DNA from: Ignavibacteriae bacterium HGW-Ignavibacteriae-2
GTDB taxonomy: Bacteria > Bacteroidota > Ignavibacteria > Ignavibacteriales > Melioribacteraceae
Assembly (NCBI GenBank): GCA_002839805.1
Contig: PGYT01000003.1
Span: 1-64,000 of the forward strand
Direction: 5' to 3'
DNA: 64,000 nt
In this document: piece after piece, positions 29,530-42,394 of the stretch
Position numbering within the stretch: position 1 is the stretch's first letter
How the letters are laid out: each line of letters begins with the position of its first letter
Made by a program: the position numbers and the translations under genes
Notes under the pieces: model-generated
Told to the model about the DNA's origin: nothing
What the model saw: the letters and a program-made list of their open reading frames with translations, nothing else
Database searches by the model: none

Positions 29530-29919
29530 ATGGGTCAGCAACAACTTTTACTTATAGTACTAGGAATAATACTGGTTGCTGTAGCTCTTGTGGTTGGAAT
29601 AAGTTTGTTTAGAGAGAATGCTGTAGATCAAAAGAGACACAATTTAATAAATGAGTGTATTAACTTGGCGGCAATGGCTCAACAATATTTTTTAAAACCA
29701 ACAACTTATGGAGGAGGCGGACAAAGTTTTACTAATTGGCAAATTCCAAACGAATTAAGAACAACTGCAAATGGGTCATACAAAATTATTACTCAAACAG
29801 CTGCTGAAGTAGTTGTTCTTGGAACAGGAAACGAAGTTGTTACCGGAACTGATAGTGTAAAGGTTAAAATTACAATTCCATCTCCACCCAACACTTATTT
29901 GGTTCAACCATTAAATTAA
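29530..29919 (+). CDS. Pilin-like protein with non-canonical N-terminus (copy 1)
   Basis: A 129-residue protein. It begins MGQQQLLLIVLG and continues as one hydrophobic helix to about residue 26, then a small globular beta-rich domain. Aligned to type IV pilins, G2 takes the place of the residue before the prepilin cut, leaving a leader of only two residues, and the usual Glu5 is Leu. It shares with the next gene the block C-x-NL-x-AMAQQYF-x-KP, a GGGG turn and a TTANG-Y segment. Its place ahead of PilC/PilB/PilT/PilMNOP/secretin genes makes it a likely structural subunit. No canonical pilin family is matched confidently by eye. Confidence 0.65.
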   Translation: MGQQQLLLIVLGIILVAVALVVGISLFRENAVDQKRHNLINECINLAAMAQQYFLKPTTYGGGGQSFTNWQIPNELRTTANGSYKIITQTAAEVVVLGTGNEVVTGTDSVKVKITIPSPPNTYLVQPLN

Positions 29920-29979: not shown

Positions 29980-30363
29980 ATGGGTCAACAGCAATTATTA
30001 CTTATCGTATTAGGCGTTATCATTGTTGGTATAGCCGTGGTTGTTGGTATTAACGTATTTACTGCTCAGTCTGAAGAATCATCAAAAGACGCAATTGTAT
30101 CAGACTGTACAAATTTGGGAGCTATGGCTCAACAATATTTCAGAAAACCAGTTGCTATGGGTGGTGGAGGAAACGCATTTACGGGTTGGACAATTCCTGC
30201 TAACTTAGCTACTACAGCTAATGGAACTTATACAGTAACTATTACCGATGCTACAAACATTGTTATTACTGGGACACCACTTGCCGGAACCAATTACACC
30301 TGGACTGTCTCTACTGCCGTTACGCCAACGACCGTAACGTCAACTATAGCGGTTGCAGAATAG
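29980..30363 (+). CDS. Pilin-like protein with non-canonical N-terminus (copy 2, probably major)
   Basis: A 127-residue paralogue of the preceding gene: the same MGQQQLLLIVLG opening, a hydrophobic helix to about residue 27, one cysteine in DCTNLGAMAQQYFRKP, a GGGG turn, and a Thr-rich C-terminal half typical of surface-exposed beta structure. It has an unusually strong Shine-Dalgarno for this window (AAAGGAG) and is followed at once by a terminator, so it may be made in excess over the downstream machinery. The role as main filament subunit is inferred from context. Confidence 0.65.
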   Translation: MGQQQLLLIVLGVIIVGIAVVVGINVFTAQSEESSKDAIVSDCTNLGAMAQQYFRKPVAMGGGGNAFTGWTIPANLATTANGTYTVTITDATNIVITGTPLAGTNYTWTVSTAVTPTTVTSTIAVAE

Positions 30364-30457: not shown

Positions 30458-31801
30458 ATGGTAGAATTACGATTCAGTGCTCTAAAACCTAATGGACAAA
30501 CAATTACCGGAACGCTTAGCGCCGAATCTTACGGTGAAGGTAAAAAAAAGATTTTAGCTCTGCTCGCGAAAAACCAGTTCAAATTACATTCCATAGACAA
30601 AAAATCTACTTTTATTTATAAAATAAGGCGCGGATCAGACGCTCCTATTAAAGGAGAACAGCGCGCATTTACAAAAGACGAAGTTGTTAAGGCGCTTACT
30701 AAACTCGGTTATCAGGTAATTTCTGTTAATAAATTTCTTTTTGAATGGAACCCTAAACCCCCTCAGCAGGAGATATTGTCGTTTGTAAAAATTAGCGCCG
30801 AGCTGTTGGAACAAAAACTCCCTTACAGCGAAATTATGACTCTTCTTGTTAACGACATCGAAAATAAAACACTTAAAGAGACATTAAAACAAATAAACAA
30901 CGAGTTAAAAAAAGGGGGCGACAGCGAAACAGTTTTCTTACGTTATCAAACTATTTTCGGTAAATTTACCGCATATATGTTAGGATTAGCCGCAAAGAGC
31001 GGTAATATGACCGAAATTTATAGAGCCACGGCCAAGTTTCTTGAAAGGAGAATGCAATTCAAAAAAGATTTACGAAGTGCTTTAATAACTCCTATGATAA
31101 CTATGTTTGTTTTGTTCCTTGCTGTAGTTTTTTATGTTGCGTATATTTTTCCTGAAACAGCTAAATTATTTGTTAAATTTAACATAGAATTACCGCCTAT
31201 GACTGCATTTACTCTTAAGATAAGTGATTTGCTTTTGGATAATGTTTGGCTGTTTACAGCTATGGTCGTAATTCCGATTATCGTATTAATTCGTTTCTTC
31301 AGCACTAAAAATGGGCGATTATTTTTCGATAAGATGATTATGAAAGTTCCTATTATGGGAAGTCTTGTTCATAAAACAAATATTGAAGTCTTTTGCAGAG
31401 TATTTTACACATTGTACAGCGGTTCGGCAGAAAGTATTGAACCAATTAGAATAGCCGCGGAAGCAACGGACAATTCTTATTTTGAAAAACAAATTAAAAA
31501 TATTGCAATCCCCATGATGATTAAAAAAGGGGCGGGAATAACCGAATCTTTTGAAGCCTCGGGTGTTTTTACAGAAACGGCTATCTCCCGATTTCACTCA
31601 GGAGAAGAGACTGGTACTATTAAAAATACCGCTCTTCAGCTCGCAAATTATTACGAAAGCGAGACTGTTTTTAGATTAAAAAACATTATTGAAATGATAC
31701 AAGTAGGAATTGCAATGGTGATAATGATTGTTATGATTCTTTTGACTTTGGTCTCAGCCGAAACGGCGACTGTAAGTCCAAAATCACCATTTATTAAATA
31801 A
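30458..31801 (+). CDS. Type II secretion F / PilC-like inner-membrane platform protein
   Basis: A 447-residue GspF/PilC family protein. It has an N-terminal cytoplasmic extension with two small repeats of a KxxxAL-x-K-x-GYxV type (about 30-110), then two T2SSF domains. Three membrane segments are visible (about 210-232, 262-283 and 410-430). The conserved F-domain phrase LRSALITPMI is present. It would couple the ATPases to pilin assembly at the inner membrane. It is followed 14 bp later by the PilB-like ATPase gene. Confidence 0.88.
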   Translation: MVELRFSALKPNGQTITGTLSAESYGEGKKKILALLAKNQFKLHSIDKKSTFIYKIRRGSDAPIKGEQRAFTKDEVVKALTKLGYQVISVNKFLFEWNPKPPQQEILSFVKISAELLEQKLPYSEIMTLLVNDIENKTLKETLKQINNELKKGGDSETVFLRYQTIFGKFTAYMLGLAAKSGNMTEIYRATAKFLERRMQFKKDLRSALITPMITMFVLFLAVVFYVAYIFPETAKLFVKFNIELPPMTAFTLKISDLLLDNVWLFTAMVVIPIIVLIRFFSTKNGRLFFDKMIMKVPIMGSLVHKTNIEVFCRVFYTLYSGSAESIEPIRIAAEATDNSYFEKQIKNIAIPMMIKKGAGITESFEASGVFTETAISRFHSGEETGTIKNTALQLANYYESETVFRLKNIIEMIQVGIAMVIMIVMILLTLVSAETATVSPKSPFIK

Positions 31802-31815
31802 TTAAAGGCGATTGC

Positions 31816-33603
31816 ATGCTAGATTCTCAATTAGAAATGACCGATAAAATTGGATATTTGTTGCTTAAAAAGGGCATTATCGATACTAAAATATTAGAAG
31901 AGGCTCTTCTAATTAAAAATGAGGATCAGGCGAAATTAAAAAGAAATCTTGCTCAAATACTTGTACAGGAGTTCAATTTTGATCATGATACAATCTTTAG
32001 AGAAGTTTCTGTTCTTTATGCGTTTAAGGAGTTAAATGTAAGCATAAAAGATTTATCCGACGAAAGAATAGAAGAGATAAGAAAACTTATGTCCGCTAAA
32101 GGGGACGAGATTAAACTGATGCTAATTGAACATCATGTTATTCCGTTTCAGTACGACAAGTTCAGAGATAAACTTGTGCTTGCCGCAGTAGATCCTACCG
32201 ACAGGGCTTTAACAAAAATTGCATACACGTTAAATGCGAAAAAATATGAAATAAATTATCTGCGTAAAAGGGATTACGATAAACTCATTCAAATAATTGC
32301 GCCTCCCGAAAATGAATTTCTGAAAATGATAGAAGAGGCAGACGAAGAAATTTCAGTTGAAAGAGACGAAATTTCAGTTGATGAAGAAGAACTGGACGCT
32401 GAAATTAATAAAAGCGCTCTTGTAAATCTTGTTGAAGCGGCTTTAGTTGAAGGAGTGCGTAAAGGTGCCAGCGATATTCATTTTATTCCCAGATCCAACA
32501 AAAAAACAGAAATACATTTTAGAGTAGACGGCAAATTAATGCTCTGGCATACTCAGGATGGTACTTTACCCGAAGCGGTAATGTCTGTTGTTAAGGATAG
32601 AGCGAAAGGATTGGATAGATTCGAAAGGGAAAGAGCCCAGGATGGATTTATACAGAGAGAAATTGATAGACACATTATAAGGTACAGAGTTTCTGTTCTG
32701 CCAATGGTTGGAACTGAACTAAGAAATAAATTTGAATCTATAGTAATACGAATTCTTGATGATAGGAAAGTTATTAAAGATCTTGGTAAACTTGGTTTGG
32801 TAGGATATGCAAGGCAGGCTTTTGAGAAATCAATTAATAAACCACAGGGAATGATAATTTTAACTGGACCTACGGGAAGTGGTAAAAGTACGACTCTTAT
32901 TGCAGCGTTATATCAAGTAATAGACCCGACAAAAAATGTTCTAACAGTTGAAGATCCTGTAGAGTATGTTATTGAAGGAGCGCGTCAGCTCAAAATTGGT
33001 CATAGAATGAATTTTGAACAAGCTATACGAGCAATATTACGACACGATCCTGATATTGTTTTGGTAGGCGAGATGCGCGATAAAGAAACCGCTGAAACTG
33101 CTGTTAAACTAGCAAACACAGGACATTTAACGTTTTCTACACTCCATACTAACGACGCTCCAAGTGCGGTTTCCCGACTTTATAAAATGGGTGTTGAGCC
33201 GTTTCTAATAGCTTATGCCATTAATATAATTGTTGCTCAAAGGCTGATTAGGAAACTATGTGAAAAGTGTAAAAGAAAAATCACTAATATTGATCCTGAA
33301 TTATTAAAAAAAGCAGGACTTGAAGTTGAAGAGTGGAAAAATTATGAAATATACGAATCTGTTGGGTGCGAACTTTGCAACAATTCAGGTTTTAAAGGAA
33401 GAATGGCAATACACGAAGCTTTACTATTTACAAATGAAATTCGAGAAATGATTGTTAGGTCAGGCGCTGAAGTTGACGAGGAAAAAATTCGTAAACAGGC
33501 AAAAAAAGATGGGACTCTTAATCTTAGGGAATCCGGTTTCGAAAAAGTGAAACAAGGTTTAACCACAATTCAGGAAGTTTTGGCAGGTACAGTTGAGGAG
33601 TAG
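31816..33603 (+). CDS. PilB/GspE-family assembly ATPase
   Basis: A 595-residue protein with a MshEN/T2SSE N-terminal domain (about 10-165), a short acidic linker holding a repeated EISV segment, and the ATPase core. Walker A is GPTGSGKST with K357, the Asp box VEDPVEY (E379-D380) is intact, Walker B is DPDIVLVGEMRD, and a His box is present (TLHTNDA). A tetracysteine zinc site (CEKC and CELC) follows, typical of PilB/GspE extension motors. It drives polymerisation of the pilin or pseudopilin. Start ATG 31816 has AAAGG 7 nt upstream. Confidence 0.93.
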   Translation: MLDSQLEMTDKIGYLLLKKGIIDTKILEEALLIKNEDQAKLKRNLAQILVQEFNFDHDTIFREVSVLYAFKELNVSIKDLSDERIEEIRKLMSAKGDEIKLMLIEHHVIPFQYDKFRDKLVLAAVDPTDRALTKIAYTLNAKKYEINYLRKRDYDKLIQIIAPPENEFLKMIEEADEEISVERDEISVDEEELDAEINKSALVNLVEAALVEGVRKGASDIHFIPRSNKKTEIHFRVDGKLMLWHTQDGTLPEAVMSVVKDRAKGLDRFERERAQDGFIQREIDRHIIRYRVSVLPMVGTELRNKFESIVIRILDDRKVIKDLGKLGLVGYARQAFEKSINKPQGMIILTGPTGSGKSTTLIAALYQVIDPTKNVLTVEDPVEYVIEGARQLKIGHRMNFEQAIRAILRHDPDIVLVGEMRDKETAETAVKLANTGHLTFSTLHTNDAPSAVSRLYKMGVEPFLIAYAINIIVAQRLIRKLCEKCKRKITNIDPELLKKAGLEVEEWKNYEIYESVGCELCNNSGFKGRMAIHEALLFTNEIREMIVRSGAEVDEEKIRKQAKKDGTLNLRESGFEKVKQGLTTIQEVLAGTVEE

Positions 33604-33674: not shown

Positions 33675-34901
33675 ATGATTGATAAAGCCAAAGAGATATT
33701 AACTAGATTTACCAGCCAGATTCCTCAAACTATATTAGGGCCGGAAAGGGTTAATTTTGTTGTTGAAAAAATAAAAGATTTGTCTAGCGACGATAAATTG
33801 ATCCTTTTTAAATTGACAAATCATATTCTAACTTTAATGATTGAACGAAATGCCTCCGACGTAGAAATTGGCGGGTATGGTACAAATGGTTATGTGTGGT
33901 TTAGGATTCACGGTGTAAAGAATCGTGTGGAGGATTTGCCGGTTTTAACTACTGACGAAGCTTCAACTTTGATAATAACTTTGTTAAATCAAAATCAACA
34001 CAGGCATTTACTTGTAAGCAGAAATCTGGATTTCAGTTATACATTTTTTCACGAAAAAGTAAAGAAAAATGTACGATTTAGAGCTGACGCATATTTTGAT
34101 CTAGATTCACTCGCTTTAAACATGCGCGCAATTTCAGCAACAACACGTCCTATTGAATCTCTTGAATTTCATCCTAATGCTGTAAAAATGATGAGCCACA
34201 ATTATATCAAATTTGGTTTGTCGTTAGTTACAGGAATTACTGGATCAGGTAAATCCACTACATTGGATTCTATAATTGACATGCACAACAAAGTAGATCC
34301 CTGCCATATTGTCATCATTGCGGCACCAATCGAGTATGTTCATGTATCAAATTCTTCTATAGTTCGACACCGAGAAGTCGGACGTGATGTGCTTTCCTTT
34401 AAAGAAGGTGTAATTCAGGGATTAAGGCAGGATCCGGATATAATTGTCATAGGTGAAATGCGCGATCCTGATACAATTATGGCTGCATTAGAGGTAACAG
34501 ATACCGGTCATAAGGTATTTTCTACACTTCATACCTCATCTGCTACTGAATCTATCGATAGAATTATCGCAGAAGTTAACCCAGTTGAGCAGGAAAGAGT
34601 TCGAAACAGGCTCGCCGATGTGCTTATTACTATAGTTTCGCAAAAATTAGTGCCCAGTACAGACGGTAAAAGAGTGCTAGCCAAAGAAGTTCTGATTGTT
34701 ACCCCCAGCGTAAGAGCAGCTATCAAGAATAATAATACAAGTGAAATTTATATGATGATTGTTCAAGGCGGTCCGCAAGGAATGATTACAATGGAACAAG
34801 ATTTGCTGCGATTATATCAACAAAGGAAAATTACGCAGGAAAATGCCCTTTCTTACGCCAATAATAAAACCAGAATGCTCCAGATTATGAGAGGGGTTTA
34901 A
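33675..34901 (+). CDS. PilT-like ATPase with altered Asp box
   Basis: A 408-residue PilT-family ATPase: Walker A GITGSGKST with K193, Walker B DPDIIVIGEMRD and His box TLHTSSATES are intact, and there is no zinc motif. The Asp box, which in PilT reads IEDPIE, is here IAAPIE: the Glu and Asp are both alanine (A216, A217). The Glu of this box has a catalytic role in related motors, so hydrolysis may be weak or differently organised. The N-terminus is longer than usual PilT by about 50 residues. It may act as a retraction motor, a regulator of PilB or a non-hydrolysing partner. Confidence 0.87.
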   Translation: MIDKAKEILTRFTSQIPQTILGPERVNFVVEKIKDLSSDDKLILFKLTNHILTLMIERNASDVEIGGYGTNGYVWFRIHGVKNRVEDLPVLTTDEASTLIITLLNQNQHRHLLVSRNLDFSYTFFHEKVKKNVRFRADAYFDLDSLALNMRAISATTRPIESLEFHPNAVKMMSHNYIKFGLSLVTGITGSGKSTTLDSIIDMHNKVDPCHIVIIAAPIEYVHVSNSSIVRHREVGRDVLSFKEGVIQGLRQDPDIIVIGEMRDPDTIMAALEVTDTGHKVFSTLHTSSATESIDRIIAEVNPVEQERVRNRLADVLITIVSQKLVPSTDGKRVLAKEVLIVTPSVRAAIKNNNTSEIYMMIVQGGPQGMITMEQDLLRLYQQRKITQENALSYANNKTRMLQIMRGV

Positions 34902-34907
34902 TTTAAA

Positions 34908-36446
34908 ATGAAACCGTTGATAAGTGTATACACAGAAGGCAACGAAACTAAAATTGCTGTTGTTTCCTTGGAAAAGGACTTACCACGTGTTTTAAAAGTT
35001 TTTAGCACTACAATCTCTTCTCCATCTGGATCGCCCGATAAAATTCAAGACCTAGGTATTGATACTTTAGGTGGTGATATAAGTTTTGAAAGTCTTGAAG
35101 ATAATAGCCCAGTTGGGGCCGATACAGACAATTCGGATGTCGGAATACTTTCGAGAGAATTAAACGAATTTAAATTGAGCAGAAGCAGCTTTATTCCCGT
35201 TACTACTGATCCCAGTGTTAACTTCCATGTTTATGAGGGAGAAAAGTTAAAGGATAGGAATAAACAGTTAGATCTGATTATTAAAGATATTGAAAAAACA
35301 AAAGGAATATTTGTTAATAAAGACAGTATTGATTTTGTTGAACTTGATGACAAATCTTATCTCTGCACTTTTTTGGAATCTTCGGTTCCATGTGTAAATA
35401 TTGTAAATCAGTTGGCCGGCTATCACCGAAGAAGATATTATAAAATTGAAACAATAAAAAATGCCGAAATAGCACTTGCCAATTATGTTTCGCGTTCTAC
35501 AAAATTTTTTCCTGAAGATTATACTTTGATAATCCATATCGGAAAAGAATCCAGTAAACTTATTTTTCTTGAAGGACAAAAACTTAAACATATTGGGACA
35601 ACTCTCGATATCGGGACACATAACCTTCACACTTACGATGTATATTTTTCCAAAATTCTACTCGAAATGGAAAACGGTGGAATTCCAAGGCTGGATAATG
35701 TTGTACTATGCGGTGATGATCGATCAGAGAATCTTGTTTTGTCGTTCTATGGTACTTTTCCGGAAGCGAACGTTGTTGAGCTTAAATTTGAAAACTTCGA
35801 TGTTTCCCAGCTAAAGCAAGATGTGTTGGAGAATTTATCCTCTTTTTCAATTCCAATTGCGGCTGCCTACGAATTTATTCGCGAAAAGGAAGATAATATT
35901 CAGGGGATCAATATACTGCCGAAGTATATTCTGGATAACCAAAAATTTCTTCAATTTGGCTGGCATAGTTATCTGATGCTTGCTCTTTTATTTGTTGCCA
36001 CTTTTTTTGTTACGTTTATGGTATTGAAAAATTTTAGTACAATTAGCAAGCATGATGCGGAAATAGCGAGATTAGAAGCTTTACAAAAAAAGAATGAGGA
36101 AATAATAAATCAAATAGCGCCGTTAACAAATAGGATAGCTAATTTCGATAATACACAAGCTATTTTGGATTCTGCAACGGTCGGAACAGAAATTTGGGGA
36201 ACAACTATTGAGAAAATTTCCAATTTTGTTGAAAGGAGAAGAAATTTCTGGATAACTCATTTGGAAACAACACAAAATAATGAAATTTTACTTAAGGGAT
36301 TTTCATTATCGCGCAGTTCGTTAACTGAATTTGCCCGCGATAATGATGCTTCTATTATAAATAATGTTCTGTATGAACCATTGAGAGAAAAAAACGCTTT
36401 TTCTTTTTCTATCAATATTTTTCACGCCAATAATCCGAATAAATAA
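34908..36446 (+). CDS. PilM-PilN fusion (GspL-like) inner-membrane assembly protein
   Basis: A 512-residue protein joining two normally separate functions. Residues about 1-335 look like the actin-like cytoplasmic PilM fold (LIIHIGKESSKLIF, DNVVLCGDD). The segment INILPKYILDNQKF (about 335-350) matches the PilN start, followed by one membrane segment (about 352-375), a coiled coil and a small periplasmic ferredoxin-like domain (about 420-510). The layout resembles GspL of type II secretion. It begins 7 bp after the PilT-like gene; its stop overlaps the start of the next gene by 1 nt (TAATG). Confidence 0.78.
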   Translation: MKPLISVYTEGNETKIAVVSLEKDLPRVLKVFSTTISSPSGSPDKIQDLGIDTLGGDISFESLEDNSPVGADTDNSDVGILSRELNEFKLSRSSFIPVTTDPSVNFHVYEGEKLKDRNKQLDLIIKDIEKTKGIFVNKDSIDFVELDDKSYLCTFLESSVPCVNIVNQLAGYHRRRYYKIETIKNAEIALANYVSRSTKFFPEDYTLIIHIGKESSKLIFLEGQKLKHIGTTLDIGTHNLHTYDVYFSKILLEMENGGIPRLDNVVLCGDDRSENLVLSFYGTFPEANVVELKFENFDVSQLKQDVLENLSSFSIPIAAAYEFIREKEDNIQGINILPKYILDNQKFLQFGWHSYLMLALLFVATFFVTFMVLKNFSTISKHDAEIARLEALQKKNEEIINQIAPLTNRIANFDNTQAILDSATVGTEIWGTTIEKISNFVERRRNFWITHLETTQNNEILLKGFSLSRSSLTEFARDNDASIINNVLYEPLREKNAFSFSINIFHANNPNK

Positions 36447-37333
36447 TGGATAGAAAACTAAAAAATACCATTGCCCTTATTATAATTTTTGTGCTTATAC
36501 TCGGTGCGGGCGGCATTTTTATTTTCGTTTATCAAAAAGGAAAAATTGATAAAAAAGAAAAACAAATTAATGATTTGAGTATCAATTCGGTGGATACTGA
36601 AAAATTAATGGAACAACTAAACATGCTAAAAAAAAGAGTCGCTGAGCTCGATTCTATTTTGGCATTGCGCAAATATAATATACCTTCAAATTTAGATCAG
36701 TCCAGTCTTTATGATTTTGTGAACAGAATATCTTTCTCTTTCGATCCAAAATCTTTTGTAAATATAGAATACATTGAAATTGGTAAGGACCCGAACTTCT
36801 ATTATTATAAATATAACATAACAGGGACGGCTTATTTTAACGAATTGTTTTACCTAATTTACGCTATTGAACAAAGCCGAGAACTAAAAAAAGTTACGGA
36901 CTGTAGTATAGATAATATTGTAAGTGTGGATGACGATGGAGTAGCTGGTTATAAGGTTTCTTTTAAACTGATGCTTCAAATATATTTTTCCGATTCCGAT
37001 CGATTTACTTCTTCCGCGATGGTGGAAAATAATTTAAAACCAAATGCTTTGTACGATGTATTTTATCCCCTAATACGCAATGAAATACCGCCGAATATTG
37101 ATAATTTGCCAGACGTGCAGTCTGCCCAACTTTTAGCTCTAATACCGGATGGAGCATTTATTGCGGATTCTCGAGGCAATACATATCTGCTCTGGGAAGG
37201 TGATAAAGTTTATTTAGGATACTTGACTGAAATTGATTATCAAAAGAACGAAGTGCATTTTATCCTGAATAAAGGCGGTATAATAGAGAAAGTTAAACTA
37301 ACTCTTGAAAAAGAAAAAAAATCGAGTGAATAA
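36446..37333 (+). CDS. PilO-PilP-like fusion assembly protein
   Basis: A 295-residue protein: a short cytoplasmic tail, one membrane segment (about 9-30), a coiled coil (about 33-68) and a PilO-like periplasmic domain (about 75-185). The C-terminal part (about 225-290: ALIPDGAFIADSRGNTYLLW then KVYLGYLTEI) resembles the beta domain of PilP that touches the secretin. Both similarities are by pattern, with low sequence conservation in these families. It would link the inner platform to the secretin. It is translationally coupled to the PilM-PilN gene. Confidence 0.7.
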   Translation: MDRKLKNTIALIIIFVLILGAGGIFIFVYQKGKIDKKEKQINDLSINSVDTEKLMEQLNMLKKRVAELDSILALRKYNIPSNLDQSSLYDFVNRISFSFDPKSFVNIEYIEIGKDPNFYYYKYNITGTAYFNELFYLIYAIEQSRELKKVTDCSIDNIVSVDDDGVAGYKVSFKLMLQIYFSDSDRFTSSAMVENNLKPNALYDVFYPLIRNEIPPNIDNLPDVQSAQLLALIPDGAFIADSRGNTYLLWEGDKVYLGYLTEIDYQKNEVHFILNKGGIIEKVKLTLEKEKKSSE

Positions 37334-37334
37334 A

Positions 37335-38585
37335 ATGAAAAAGGTATTTTTAATAATCTTTACTTTAACCAGCATGTTAACTCTTTTTGCGCAGAAAAAC
37401 TTGCAGGAAAAGTTGAGTGGTTATGTTAATCCTGAAGAAATTGTAACTCTTTCTGAAAATATACCTTTTGCGCAGGCAGTTGAAGTATTGAGCCAAGTGA
37501 GTGTTAAACTTACCGGAAAAACAATTGTTTCAACAGCTTCAGTTAATGAACCCATCGGAATTCAAATTGATAAAATGCCTTACAAAAGAGTTTTGAATAT
37601 TATTACTCAAATGAAGAATTTGGTTTACGATGAACAGGAAAGCGCTATAATTATAAAAAGTCCGGCTACATCAAACTCAAATCTTAAAGAAGATATTTAT
37701 GCTTCAGTTGAATCGCGTGAAGTTGAAATTTCAGCAATATTTTTTGAAGCTAATACAAGAGATTCGCGTGAACAGGGAATAAACTGGGATTATCTGCTTT
37801 CTCAAGCGGGATTATCTTTTGGTCCGAAATTGAAAACTTTTATGAGTGCTGCCGATCAACAACAACAATCGCAGGGAGCAACAGGTCAGGTGGTTGAAAC
37901 ACCTGATTTTACAATAGAGAATAAGACAGAATTTGATTTGGGAAGTTTTAAAGGCAACGCAACTGCAGCTTTTAAGTTTTTTGAAAATCAGAATCTTGGA
38001 GAAATTATTGCAAGGCCTTCTATTTCGGTAAGAAATAAAATGAAAGGAAGAATACAAATAGGAGAGGACATTTCTATAAAGGAAAGAGATTTTTCGGGAA
38101 ATTTAATCGACAAGTTCTTTTCAACTGGAACCATAATTGAAGTTACGCCTTACATTTACACCGAGGATGGAATAAATTATATATTACTTAAACTGATGGT
38201 TGAGCGAAGCAGCGGCACTCCAGGACAAATTAGCACCACAATTCAAAAAACTAATGCTACTACTGAAGTCCTGATGCTTGACGGCGAAGAAACAATAATC
38301 GGTGGTTTATTTGTTAACAACGAAGTTTCTGAAAGACGTGGAATTCCTTTTCTTAAAGATTTGCCATGGTGGGTTTTTGGTATTCGGTACCTAACAGGTT
38401 ACAATAGTGAGACTTTGGAAAAAAGGGAAATAATAATACTAATAAAAACAAATATTCTTCCCACACTTAAAGAAAGGATTGAACTGAAGAAAAATGAAAA
38501 TTTGATTAGAAAAACTATTGAAGAAACAGAGAAGGAAATTGAATCCCATAAATCGAATACAATGAAGAAAGAGAAAGAAGAATAA
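37335..38585 (+). CDS. Compact secretin (GspD/PilQ family)
   Basis: About 416 residues with a signal peptide (MKKVFLIIFTLTSMLTLFA). A single N-terminal STN/N-type domain (about 40-110) is followed by the secretin core (about 125-375), with VEISAIFFEANTRDS, GTIIEVTPYI and DGEETIIGGLFVNNEVSERRGIPFLKDLPW. The tail is Lys/Glu-rich. It is much shorter than PilQ or GspD (usually over 600), lacking repeated N domains and an AMIN domain. ATG 37335 is preferred over TTG 37305 because it gives a clean signal peptide. It forms the outer-membrane pore for the filament. Confidence 0.88.
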   Translation: MKKVFLIIFTLTSMLTLFAQKNLQEKLSGYVNPEEIVTLSENIPFAQAVEVLSQVSVKLTGKTIVSTASVNEPIGIQIDKMPYKRVLNIITQMKNLVYDEQESAIIIKSPATSNSNLKEDIYASVESREVEISAIFFEANTRDSREQGINWDYLLSQAGLSFGPKLKTFMSAADQQQQSQGATGQVVETPDFTIENKTEFDLGSFKGNATAAFKFFENQNLGEIIARPSISVRNKMKGRIQIGEDISIKERDFSGNLIDKFFSTGTIIEVTPYIYTEDGINYILLKLMVERSSGTPGQISTTIQKTNATTEVLMLDGEETIIGGLFVNNEVSERRGIPFLKDLPWWVFGIRYLTGYNSETLEKREIIILIKTNILPTLKERIELKKNENLIRKTIEETEKEIESHKSNTMKKEKEE

Positions 38586-38587
38586 TA

Positions 38588-38962
38588 ATGCACTCGATTC
38601 TAATAGTCGATGATGATATAAATCTTTGTACTGTATTATCCGAAGAATTAAACGAAATCGGGTTTAATGCAACAGCAGTAAATTCGGCCGACAAGGCTAT
38701 CAGTTTTATAGAAAATAATCAATTAGATTTAATTTTATTAGATCTGAAAATGCCAGAGAAGGACGGTTTTTATGTTTTAAACTCTTTAAAAGAAATGGGG
38801 ATAAAAGTTAAAGTAATTGTTCTAACCGCTTATGCCGACGTCCAGAGTGCAATAGATTCGGCAAAATTAGGTGCGAACAATTTTATCAGTAAACCTTATG
38901 ATCTAGATGATTTAATAATTACTGTCCGGAAAGTTTTACAAACAGAAGACAATGAAAATTAA
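38588..38962 (+). CDS. Single-domain response regulator (CheY-like)
   Basis: A 124-residue receiver domain without output domain. The acidic pocket is D8-D9-D10, the phospho-acceptor is D52 (LLDLKMPEKDG), with T in VLTAY and K in SKPYD. It starts 2 nt after the secretin stop and overlaps the following kinase by 11 bp, so it appears to be part of the pilus operon. It may pass a signal to the PilB or PilT motors or act in a relay with the hybrid kinase. Confidence 0.9.
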   Translation: MHSILIVDDDINLCTVLSEELNEIGFNATAVNSADKAISFIENNQLDLILLDLKMPEKDGFYVLNSLKEMGIKVKVIVLTAYADVQSAIDSAKLGANNFISKPYDLDDLIITVRKVLQTEDNEN

Positions 38963-41729
38963 TGTTCGTATTACTCTCATCACTTTTCTTGTTGTAGTAA
39001 TCGTTTCAGGAGTATCTTCCTTAGTATATTATTCCACTACAAATGCAATCCTAGAATCCAGAAACACTAAAAATATTATTAATAGCACCAACGATTTTGT
39101 TTTTTTTCTGGAATCCAGTATCGATAAAACCAATGAAGATTTTCAGAAGTATTACCTAAATAAAAACAAAATAGAACCTATTAATATAGACAGTACAAGT
39201 GTTGATTTAATTTTTTCTATAGGTGAAGAAAATCAGGTAAAAATTATTGCAATTAAAACAGGGATAATAATAAACAGACGTTTTAATACTTTTAAGGATT
39301 TTGTAGACGATAACCCGCACTTGATTGTACAATTCTTTAAGAATTGGGAAGGCGCCACAATTTATTACGCTATAGTTATCGATGAAAAATTTCTTAATGA
39401 AGCTTCAAAAAAAATTAGAGCCGATGTAGCTCTTATGATAGACAATTTGCCCTATAATTACTCGAATTCAAATGAAAACAGCAATTATGTGGCAAACATG
39501 ATAAATTCACAAAATAAGCTGAAATATTTAAATAATTTCGATATTATAAATTCTTCCACCAGCGGGGCCGATTTTGTTGCAGTAAAATATCAGCCTAAAA
39601 ACATTTTAACATCTACATCCAAATTTAGTTTTTTAGTTTTCTCGCTTTATTCAGAGTTGTATTATTTTACTGATACAATGAAAATTATAATTCCAGTAAT
39701 AATATTGACCGGAATTGTACTGGCAATGATATTTGCTCTTGTTTTTACAGCAAAATTCAGAAAACAAATTTCCCTATTAACCGAAGCCACTACAATTAAT
39801 CGCCAGGGGAATCTGGATTATCATGTCCCGATCATTTCTAAAGACGAAATAGGAAATTTAGGCGTTACATTCAATCAAATGATTTCTGAAATTAACAACA
39901 AAGAAAAACTGGAAAAACAATATGCCGAATTTATTGTTATACTTAACCAGAACATTACTTTGAAAGATTTATCACATTCGGTTCTAGTAAAAATTCTGGA
40001 ATCAGTTAATTTTAAATTTGGTGCCATCTATTTGCAACAGGAAGACGATTTGAGTGTACTCTGCAGCATCGGGCTGGATAAGAATTACAATGTTGATATT
40101 GAAAACACCGGACTGTACAAAAGCGTAATTGAACAACGTGAATCCGTTGAAATGAAATTTGAAGAAAATATGCCAGTTATTCGCAGCGCAATTCTTGAAA
40201 TTGAAATAAGGTATTTGGTTATTGTACCGATAATTTTCGGCGACAAATTTTTAGGACTTATTGAATTAGTAAGTGAAACAATTCCAATTATTTCACCAAG
40301 AGAGTTTTTGGAGAAAATTAAAGAACAATTGGCAATAGGGTTGAACAATTCGTTATCATATCAGAAACTTTCTAAACTTGTTGATGAACTGAAACAATTG
40401 AATGAGGAATATCATAAACAAAACATACAAATTAGTGGACATAACGAGGAACTTGTTAAGCTGCACTCACAATTGAAAGAAAAGGCTTCAGAACTGGAAG
40501 AGGAAAAAAGAAAAGCTGTTGAATTATCTCACGTTAAGTCGCAGTTTCTGGCAAGTATGTCGCACGAATTAAAAACTCCTCTCAATTCTATTATTGGATT
40601 AAGTGAACTAACTGAAAAAGATCCAGCATCTCTTCAAAAAACTAAAGATCGAGTAAAAATTGTATTAAGAAACAGCAAAAAACTGCTCGGGATGATTAAC
40701 AATATTTTAGAGTTTTCAAAAATTGAAGCTGGGAAATACGATGTAAATAAACAAAACTTTTTGCCCTCCGAATTTTTAACAGAAATATATTTAAGTTCCG
40801 AAATTTTATTTAGCGAGAAACAACTGCCGTTTACAATTAAAATTAACAGTTCAAAAAATCTACTTCTTAATACGGATAAAACTAAAGTCGAACACATTCT
40901 ACTTAATTTGATCAGTAACGCTGCTAAATTTACAGATATTGGTTCTGTGACTATGAATGTCGAAAAAGTAGATGCCAGGGATGTTAAGTTTAGTATTATT
41001 GATACGGGAATTGGAATTTCTGAAACTAATCAACAGAAAATTTTCAATGAATTTAGCCAAGTTGAATCGGGAAATAGCAGAAAATACAGTGGGGCGGGTT
41101 TAGGATTGGCTATCTGCGCAAGATATGCTGAAATATTAAACGCTTCTATTGGCGTAAATAGTTTAGAGGGAGTAGGCTCAACATTTACGTTGCTAATTAG
41201 TGAGGCAATATCTGAAGAAATACCATTTCACAACGAAAAAGAATTTTTGATATCTTCTGATAGAAAAAATAAAAAAATTAACACTCCCGATTCATTACTA
41301 ACAGTAAATCAATCTTTAATTCCCGACGAAAGTTCGAAAACTCTTTTGCCCCAGATCTTATTAGTAGACGATGATAAAGATACTTTATATACAGTAGGTG
41401 AAATTCTTACCAATCTTGGTTACAATCTGCATTATGCAAACAACGGGATAGAATGTTTGGCTAAGTTGGAAGAAATTAAGCCTGATTTAATTCTGCTTGA
41501 TATTATGATGCCAGAAATGGACGGTTTTGAGACTATAAAAAAAATAAGAGCCAGCGAATCTTTAAAATATCTTAAAGTATTCGCTTTAACCGCTCACGCA
41601 ATGCTTGATGATAAACATATTATTGAACAAACCGGCTTTGATGATTTAATAACAAAACCGGTTGAAAATACAACAATTCAATTAAAAGTTAAACAAGCCA
41701 TTATCAATAACAATAGAAAACCAGTATGA
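38952..41729 (+). CDS. Membrane hybrid sensor histidine kinase with C-terminal receiver
   Basis: A 925-residue protein. The order is: membrane segment (about 8-28), periplasmic sensor (about 30-240), membrane segment (about 242-268), HAMP (about 270-320), GAF-like domain (about 330-465), coiled coil (about 470-530), HisKA with H538 (MSHELKTPLN), HATPase (N, DTGIGI and GAGLGLAI boxes), and a receiver with D850 (LLDIMMPEMDG). It overlaps the genes on both sides (11 bp and 4 bp). The stimulus is unknown; position suggests pilus or surface signalling. Confidence 0.92.
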   Translation: MKINVRITLITFLVVVIVSGVSSLVYYSTTNAILESRNTKNIINSTNDFVFFLESSIDKTNEDFQKYYLNKNKIEPINIDSTSVDLIFSIGEENQVKIIAIKTGIIINRRFNTFKDFVDDNPHLIVQFFKNWEGATIYYAIVIDEKFLNEASKKIRADVALMIDNLPYNYSNSNENSNYVANMINSQNKLKYLNNFDIINSSTSGADFVAVKYQPKNILTSTSKFSFLVFSLYSELYYFTDTMKIIIPVIILTGIVLAMIFALVFTAKFRKQISLLTEATTINRQGNLDYHVPIISKDEIGNLGVTFNQMISEINNKEKLEKQYAEFIVILNQNITLKDLSHSVLVKILESVNFKFGAIYLQQEDDLSVLCSIGLDKNYNVDIENTGLYKSVIEQRESVEMKFEENMPVIRSAILEIEIRYLVIVPIIFGDKFLGLIELVSETIPIISPREFLEKIKEQLAIGLNNSLSYQKLSKLVDELKQLNEEYHKQNIQISGHNEELVKLHSQLKEKASELEEEKRKAVELSHVKSQFLASMSHELKTPLNSIIGLSELTEKDPASLQKTKDRVKIVLRNSKKLLGMINNILEFSKIEAGKYDVNKQNFLPSEFLTEIYLSSEILFSEKQLPFTIKINSSKNLLLNTDKTKVEHILLNLISNAAKFTDIGSVTMNVEKVDARDVKFSIIDTGIGISETNQQKIFNEFSQVESGNSRKYSGAGLGLAICARYAEILNASIGVNSLEGVGSTFTLLISEAISEEIPFHNEKEFLISSDRKNKKINTPDSLLTVNQSLIPDESSKTLLPQILLVDDDKDTLYTVGEILTNLGYNLHYANNGIECLAKLEEIKPDLILLDIMMPEMDGFETIKKIRASESLKYLKVFALTAHAMLDDKHIIEQTGFDDLITKPVENTTIQLKVKQAIINNNRKPV

Positions 41730-42394
41730 AAAAAATTCTAATCGTAGACGATCAACCGGATAATGTTTTTATTCTTGAAGATAGACTAAAAAGAGAAGGA
41801 TTTGAAACTATAAGTGCTTACGACGGGCCTACTTGTCTGCAAAAAGCAGAAGATGACAATCCGGATTTAGTTTTGCTCGATGTAATGATGCCCGGTATGT
41901 CGGGATTCGAGGCATGCGAAAAACTTGTATCCAATGAAAAAACAAAGTCTATCCCCGTTATTCTTGTTACAGCGCTCACGGATATTGAAGATATTAAAAA
42001 GGGACTATCAGTAGGTGCCTTCGATTATATTAAAAAACCTTATAATAGGGCGGAATTAATCGCTCGAGTTAACTCTGCTCTGCGATTTAGCGAATCTAAC
42101 AAAGTATTGATAGAAGTGGAAAAAATTAAAACTTTTGCAGCAACGGTAATTACTGCCAATCACGAAATTAAACAGCCGTTAACTCTTATAAACCTATCTA
42201 CCGCTGCAATAACACGTGAATTGGGCCGTGAAGAGCTAAGGAAGGAAGTAATACAAAAACGGATAATGTTTATTGACAATGCCACTAAGGATATAATTAG
42301 AGTACTGGAAAAATTTAATCAAATCAAAAAACCTGTAATTACAGATTATGTTAATAATTTAAAAATGGTTGATCTGGATAAATCGGAGGAATAA
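41726..42394 (+). CDS. Receiver-DHp protein lacking a kinase ATP-binding domain
   Basis: A 222-residue protein: a receiver domain (1-120) with acceptor D52 (LLDVMMPGMSG), then a helical region with H146 in NHEIKQPLTLINLS, an H-box like that of HisKA dimerisation domains. No N, G1 or G2 box follows; the protein ends at about 70 residues past the histidine. It might act as a phosphotransfer intermediate or a dimerising partner of the hybrid kinase. The stop abuts the stop of the convergent kinase gene with no bases between. Confidence 0.8.
   Translation: MKKILIVDDQPDNVFILEDRLKREGFETISAYDGPTCLQKAEDDNPDLVLLDVMMPGMSGFEACEKLVSNEKTKSIPVILVTALTDIEDIKKGLSVGAFDYIKKPYNRAELIARVNSALRFSESNKVLIEVEKIKTFAATVITANHEIKQPLTLINLSTAAITRELGREELRKEVIQKRIMFIDNATKDIIRVLEKFNQIKKPVITDYVNNLKMVDLDKSEE

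Follow-up and report, generated by a model that had tools for sequence, protein, structure and literature searches.

A PilT-like ATPase encoded in the 64,000-nucleotide stretch of DNA analysed here (the window) raises the question of what a pilus motor does when its Asp box lacks the two acidic residues with which this box normally begins. The gene (33675..34901; this and all other features of the window described below lie on the + strand) encodes a protein of 408 aa that matches the T2SSE profile, and it is the sole PilT-like gene of the genome. As the initial annotation pointed out, the protein reads IIAAPIEY (I214-I215-A216-A217-P218-I219-E220-Y221; 34314..34337) where other PilTs read (I/V)EDP(I/V)E(Y/F) and the PilB of the window reads VEDPVEY, and A216-A217, with the codons GCG-GCA (34320..34325), stand in the place of Glu-Asp. 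The same annotation held that the Walker A, Walker B and His boxes are intact, and this was borne out for Walker A (GITGSGKST, residues 187-195; 34233..34259), for Walker B with the catalytic Glu (IIVIGEMRD, residues 256-264; 34440..34466) and for the His box (T277-H286; 34503..34532), in which both histidines are present.

Assignment to the PilT family is supported by profile and by predicted structure. The score against TIGR01420, the NCBI model for PilT/PilU, passes the cut-off narrowly (321 bits against 319.1, i.e., 2 bits over), and the scores against the DotB and TraJ models fall far below the cut-offs of both. An AlphaFold2 model (31 sequences; pLDDT 91, pTM 0.77) has a PilT fold, aligning with 6ojy_D over 350 residues at Z 42.9 and rmsd 1.9, and the predicted structure of the protein is that of a complete PilT. 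The protein shares with the PilTs of Geobacter (PilT4), Aquifex and Pseudomonas this fold, about 36% identity, the Walker A and B motifs, the His box, the second Glu of the Asp box, the trans arginine and a neighbourhood of pilB and pilC. It differs from them in the replaced Glu-Asp, in about 45 extra residues at the N-terminus and in the sequence SVRAAIKN (residues 345-352; 34707..34730), which does not match the PilT motif AIRNLIRE expected at this site.

The genome from which the window derives (4.16 Mb in 147 contigs, 99.92% complete) contains only two genes over the T2SSE cut-off, the PilT-like gene and the adjacent pilB, and the possibility that the PilT-like protein is a spare beside a second, normal PilT is therefore rejected for this genome. 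A third, sub-threshold T2SSE match lies in an open reading frame for a RecD2 helicase and not for a motor ATPase. One relative (G028) carries an extra canonical PilT with the Asp box FEDPIEY on a 9.3 kb contig (locus L054); no prepilin peptidase was found in the G028 genome, and the extra gene could be contamination. The viral contigs scanned contained no relative of the window protein and one partial relative of a canonical PilT, the phage collection searched contained distant PilTs only, and a search of PHROGs pointed to two families of unknown function.

The missing pair is a property of a whole clade. The search for orthologues covered 58 relatives, 197 genomes of the class and 296 genomes of the phylum, three samples that overlap, and PilT-like matches were present in 51 of the relatives (with E of at most 1e-60; a contig end truncates one of these matches), in 107 of the class genomes and in 101 of the phylum genomes. 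Sequences were taken from the loci of the relatives, from selected stretches and from 80 named loci, i.e., from a part of all matches; removal of duplicates and short rows from the 172 rows above 300 bits left 137 different orthologues, each 380 aa or longer. At position 216 these have Ala (111), Ser (13) or Gly (13) and never Glu, and at position 217 Ser (83), Ala (37), Lys (6), Gln (4), Asn (3), Glu (2) or Arg (2) and never Asp, while all nine canonical PilTs aligned with them (L054, L191 and L194-L200) have both Glu and Asp. Among 66 PilB-like rows, the pair is ED in 61 and EE in four, with a gap in one. The orthologue alignment at positions 216-217 that the initial annotation had suggested therefore excludes, for this sample, both orthologues with the normal pair and a sequencing error, and a private mutation is rejected on the same ground.

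P218, K193, R263, the trans arginine R251 (34425..34427; R195 in Geobacter PilT), the catalytic E261 and the His-box residues H279 and H286 are invariant in the 137 orthologues, and E220 (34332..34334) is Glu in all except one. The exception (L173) reads SSPIQF and is the sole orthologue with Gln for this Glu. Another member of the clade (L066, from genome G083) reads ITEMRD for the IGEMRD found elsewhere, Thr replacing the Gly before the catalytic Glu. In a tree of 69 rows, the 47 clade rows stand on one stem with 2.88 changes per column and support of 100/100, beside the canonical PilTs and apart from PilB; the order among the canonical rows is unsure because some of them have long branches. 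The Glu-Asp pair disappeared a single time, on the stem leading to this clade, whose members are spread across the phylum of the window. By name, the nearest records belong to Melioribacteraceae and other Ignavibacteria and then to Kryptonia, and a few are titled Chlorobiota, Calditrichota or Acidobacteria.

Purifying selection is evident in six pairs of orthologues (pN 0.11-0.16 against pS 0.73-0.86), and dN/dS is 0.046 and 0.062 in the two of these pairs that are not saturated. Together with the alignment, this selection indicates that the substitution is genuine and maintained by selection in a protein that is conserved elsewhere, which bears out the initial annotation on this point. That the gene is a decayed remnant or the product of a sequencing error, for which nothing but the missing pair itself speaks, has a negligible probability and is already refuted for the sample: the pair is absent from every one of the 137 orthologues, purifying selection is strong, the frame is open and free of stops in all PilT-like matches listed, and the operon is conserved.

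The consequences of the loss depend on what the two residues do in known motors. In the PilB of Geobacter metallireducens, Asp-box residue E357 is described as lying on magnesium and E395 as catalytic (PMC5424180). When aligned, the PDB chain of this PilB, which is offset by 20 tag residues, reads E353-D354-P-V-E357, and E357 is therefore the second Glu of the box, which is kept as E220 in the window protein. In the PilT of the same species, the Asp box is given as E160-E164, E164 being its only residue that touches magnesium, and D161 contacts R195 of the neighbouring subunit; the catalytic Glu sits after Walker B, and its mutation abolishes twitching in Pseudomonas (PMC6858323). Residue numbers in the window protein run 56 ahead of those in Geobacter PilT throughout the region that starts at Walker A and ends at the His box; A216-A217 therefore correspond to E160-D161, and E220 corresponds to E164. 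The same count places the named Asp-box Glu of CpaF at the position of the second Glu, given what we take to be the residues of CpaF at its Asp box. It also places the named Glu of DotB there (PMC6153414).

The view that the lost Glu is the catalytic one, which the initial annotation had put forward, is thus not upheld, nor is a role of this Glu in binding magnesium: mapping onto the PilB and PilT structures assigns magnesium to the second Glu, E220, and activation of water to the Glu after Walker B, E261. The lost equivalents of E160 and D161 are therefore neither magnesium-binding nor water-activating residues. No measurement of a mutant of E160 only or of D161 only was found in the literature searched; mutations in these motifs are reported to disrupt ATPase activity and function, in a statement that does not name the residue (PMC5424180). 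A natural variant is offered by Legionella DotB, which, like TraJ, is a PilT-like hexameric ATPase and whose Asp box reads ESPIE, so that the Asp is absent and the first Glu is kept. DotB hydrolyses ATP (PMC6153414), and the Asp is dispensable in DotB. Because DotB keeps the first Glu, this precedent is partial and does not cover the loss of both residues; TraJ of L190 keeps YEDPVEF, and both DotB and TraJ, unlike the window protein, serve type IVB secretion systems.

The window protein is the single PilT-type motor of a type IV pilus-like machine. It probably hydrolyses ATP and drives retraction with a subunit interface that has been rewired, hydrolysis and retraction being attributed to it from its homologues. 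This reading is favoured because the magnesium and catalytic Glu residues, Walker A, the His box and the trans arginine are kept, and because the residue equivalent to D161 makes an inter-subunit contact. The first two acidic residues of the Asp box disappeared a single time, in the common ancestor of the clade, and mostly small residues have stood in their place since. In the proposed mechanism, ATP would be bound by Walker A, magnesium would be held by E220 and water would be activated by E261, the His box and R251 being still present. The change would thus concern the sensing of nucleotide between neighbouring subunits and not the chemistry, because the lost Asp is the partner of the trans arginine in the solved PilT.

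The loss is unlikely to be neutral because both residues are present in all nine canonical PilTs. Sixteen positions separate the clade from the canonical sequences, the lost pair accounting for two of them, and several of the other differences, found only in the clade, are changes of charge: Ala to D198 (34266..34268; five residues past the Walker A lysine, and Ala in eight of the nine canonical PilTs), Gln to H232, Thr to E273, Leu to K280, and Gln to both R308 and R312. D198, H232, R308 and R312 occur in all 137 orthologues, and E273 and K280 in 136. E273 corresponds to T217 of Geobacter PilT; this Thr contacts H230 in one of the conformations, and Aquifex has Arg at the site (PMC6858323). 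These residues, fixed on the same stem, are candidates for compensation, and we propose, on comparison with homologous sequences, that the new charges may repair the interface. Against a hydrolysing motor with a rewired interface we count the probably non-neutral loss itself, the reported effect of mutations in these motifs (PMC5424180), the replacement of AIRNLIRE, described as a PilT signature required for retraction (PMC6153414), the narrow family score and the incomplete precedent of DotB.

The main alternative is that the protein is a slow or nearly inactive ATPase that acts as a regulator, binding ATP and forming a hexamer that competes with PilB for PilC and so halts extension without pulling. 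We consider this unlikely, although several observations are in its favour: two residues fixed in the canonical PilTs are lost, changes in these motifs have been reported to disrupt activity (PMC5424180), the genome has no second PilT or PilU that could compensate, and AIRNLIRE is not matched. If regulation did not require hydrolysis, however, there would be little reason for at least 136 of 137 orthologues to retain the catalytic Glu, the Glu that binds magnesium, both histidines of the His box and the trans arginine. A still less probable arrangement, to which we give little credence, is that the protein forms mixed rings or shares an axis with PilB, which would then provide the trans arginine with the acidic partner that it lacks. 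It would fit the gene order, since the gene immediately follows pilB both in the window and in the majority of loci with both genes, and the retention of EDPVEY in pilB, and two such ATPases can cooperate, since PilU needs PilT (PMC6762196); yet in Kryptonia loci minor-pilin genes separate pilB from pilT, and the model of the window protein is that of a complete PilT. PilU is a second PilT-type motor, and in the species studied its work depends on a partner (PMC6762196), whereas the window genome has no canonical PilT on which such a protein could depend. The suggestion of the initial annotation that the motor has a changed mode of work stands as a possibility, without its original rationale from a catalytic Glu; for two of the options it named, passive retraction and regulation of PilB, no positive support was found. 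The family of this ATPase is known, its Asp-box variant has no description in the literature searched, and the more surprising part is the machine that surrounds it.

This machine is encoded in an operon. Two pilin genes (pilin 1, 29530..29919; pilin 2, 29980..30363), whose products both begin MGQQQLLLIVLG..., are followed by pilC for the platform protein (30458..31801), pilB for the extension ATPase (31816..33603), the PilT-like gene, genes for a PilM-like protein (34908..36446; a weak assignment from its place and a sub-threshold NCBIfam match) and a PilO-like protein (36446..37333; a weak assignment from place and size only), pilQ for the secretin (37305..38585; the ATG start is probably at 37332) and a gene for a single-domain response regulator (38588..38962), which often adjoins pilQ in relatives. 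PilB, PilC and a secretin are thus encoded together, as in type IVa pili. The order pilin, pilin, pilC, pilB, pilT, pilM-like, pilO-like, pilQ, response regulator is found again in many of the named loci whose contigs extend far enough, and in some named loci the pilins are absent at that place. Like a type IVa pilus, the system has PilB, PilT, PilC, PilQ and pilins of the type IV fold, but it differs in that its pilins lack both a leader and Glu5 and in that no prepilin peptidase was found in the genome.

Both pilins start with MGQQQLL, which is invariant in 21 aligned pilins chosen from the loci; a class III signal is defined by a leader followed by a hydrophobic helix (PMC10191384), and of these the helix is present and the leader absent. 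Starts of the form MG[QT]QQL were found 70 times, in 43 of the 81 sources scanned, and within the window genome at 29530 and 29980 only; wider loci from the phylum also contain similar short starts. In 39 of the 70 frames, the Met is preceded by fewer than five in-frame residues, and the other 31 have room for at least five. A leader hidden by a wrongly chosen start codon is unlikely, because of the 39 short frames and the conservation of the start (the 31 other frames do have room); in-frame stops lie just upstream, and a Shine-Dalgarno-like AAAGGAG precedes many of the ATGs. The model of pilin 2 (pLDDT 88) consists of one long helix and four strands, and type IV pilins fill all of its top 19 rows in VIA-align (Z 11.0 to 5.1), which predicts a type IV pilin fold; Foldseek on the pilin model, taken alone, gave no hit at E of 0.001 or below (best E 0.098) and did not place it. 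In many of the VIA-align alignments, residue 4 of the window pilin falls close to residue 1 of the mature pilins, so that a Leu occupies the position of Glu5.

Leaderless genes resembling those of minor pilins occur in the window genome as two trios (L201, 349-2536 on contig C94; L202, 980-3425 on contig C42), and the middle type of the trio often has an acidic residue at position 6, which becomes position 5 once Met is removed. In Kryptonia, such a trio is found between pilB and pilT (L168, 3224-5863; L169, 3396-5878). Seven minor-pilin-like proteins from relatives gave no Pfam match over the cut-off. No description of leaderless pilins was found in the literature searched, which consisted largely of papers that need no subscription.

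A leader and a prepilin peptidase are described as general for type IV filaments (PMC10191384). Profile searches of the window genome with PF01478 and PF06750 gave no match, a result that would miss a very divergent enzyme; as controls, the same searches were positive in 12 and 8 of 14 genomes, respectively. Among the 58 relatives, PF01478 matches numbered six in five genomes, and each of the six has a second GspE-like ATPase encoded no more than about 500 bases away, the arrangement that a separate secretion system would give. A PilT-like gene without a PF01478 match was found in 46 of 51 relatives, 99 of 107 class genomes and 90 of 101 phylum genomes. Both are present in 11 genomes of the phylum sample, and in two of these (G025 and G033) the PF01478 matches belong to the six already described. 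An assembly gap is unlikely to be the cause, since five one-contig genomes (G010, G035, G046, G048 and G049) carry the PilT-like gene and gave no match to PF01478. A 2013 paper notes that pilA and pilD are missing in Melioribacter. The putative type II secretion system of Cytophaga hutchinsonii is likewise a machine of the type IV filament family in Bacteroidetes, but its cluster includes a Peptidase_A24 protein, CHU_3197 (PMC5553014).

We see an even chance that a deep branch of the Bacteroidota/Ignavibacteriota assemblage builds type IV pilus-like filaments without a prepilin peptidase, from leaderless major and minor pilins (the major pilins also without Glu5) from which presumably only the first Met is removed, and with a retraction motor whose nucleotide interface has been rebuilt and lacks the Glu-Asp of the Asp box. 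That the two changes are linked, the motor having been adjusted to extract subunits whose way into the filament is different, is only a guess. The clade provides a natural test of the purpose of the Asp box, since its first two acidic residues are gone and all known contacts to ATP and magnesium are kept, and it could allow the chemistry of the motor to be separated from signalling between subunits. If a pilus does form without prepilin peptidase, one large lineage would manage without a step that reviews call required for type IV filaments, and direct tests could then address the insertion, extraction and stacking of a pilin that has neither leader nor Glu5. Control of the pilus is possibly encoded nearby, as a response regulator, a hybrid histidine kinase and a second response regulator (38588-42394) lie right after pilQ.
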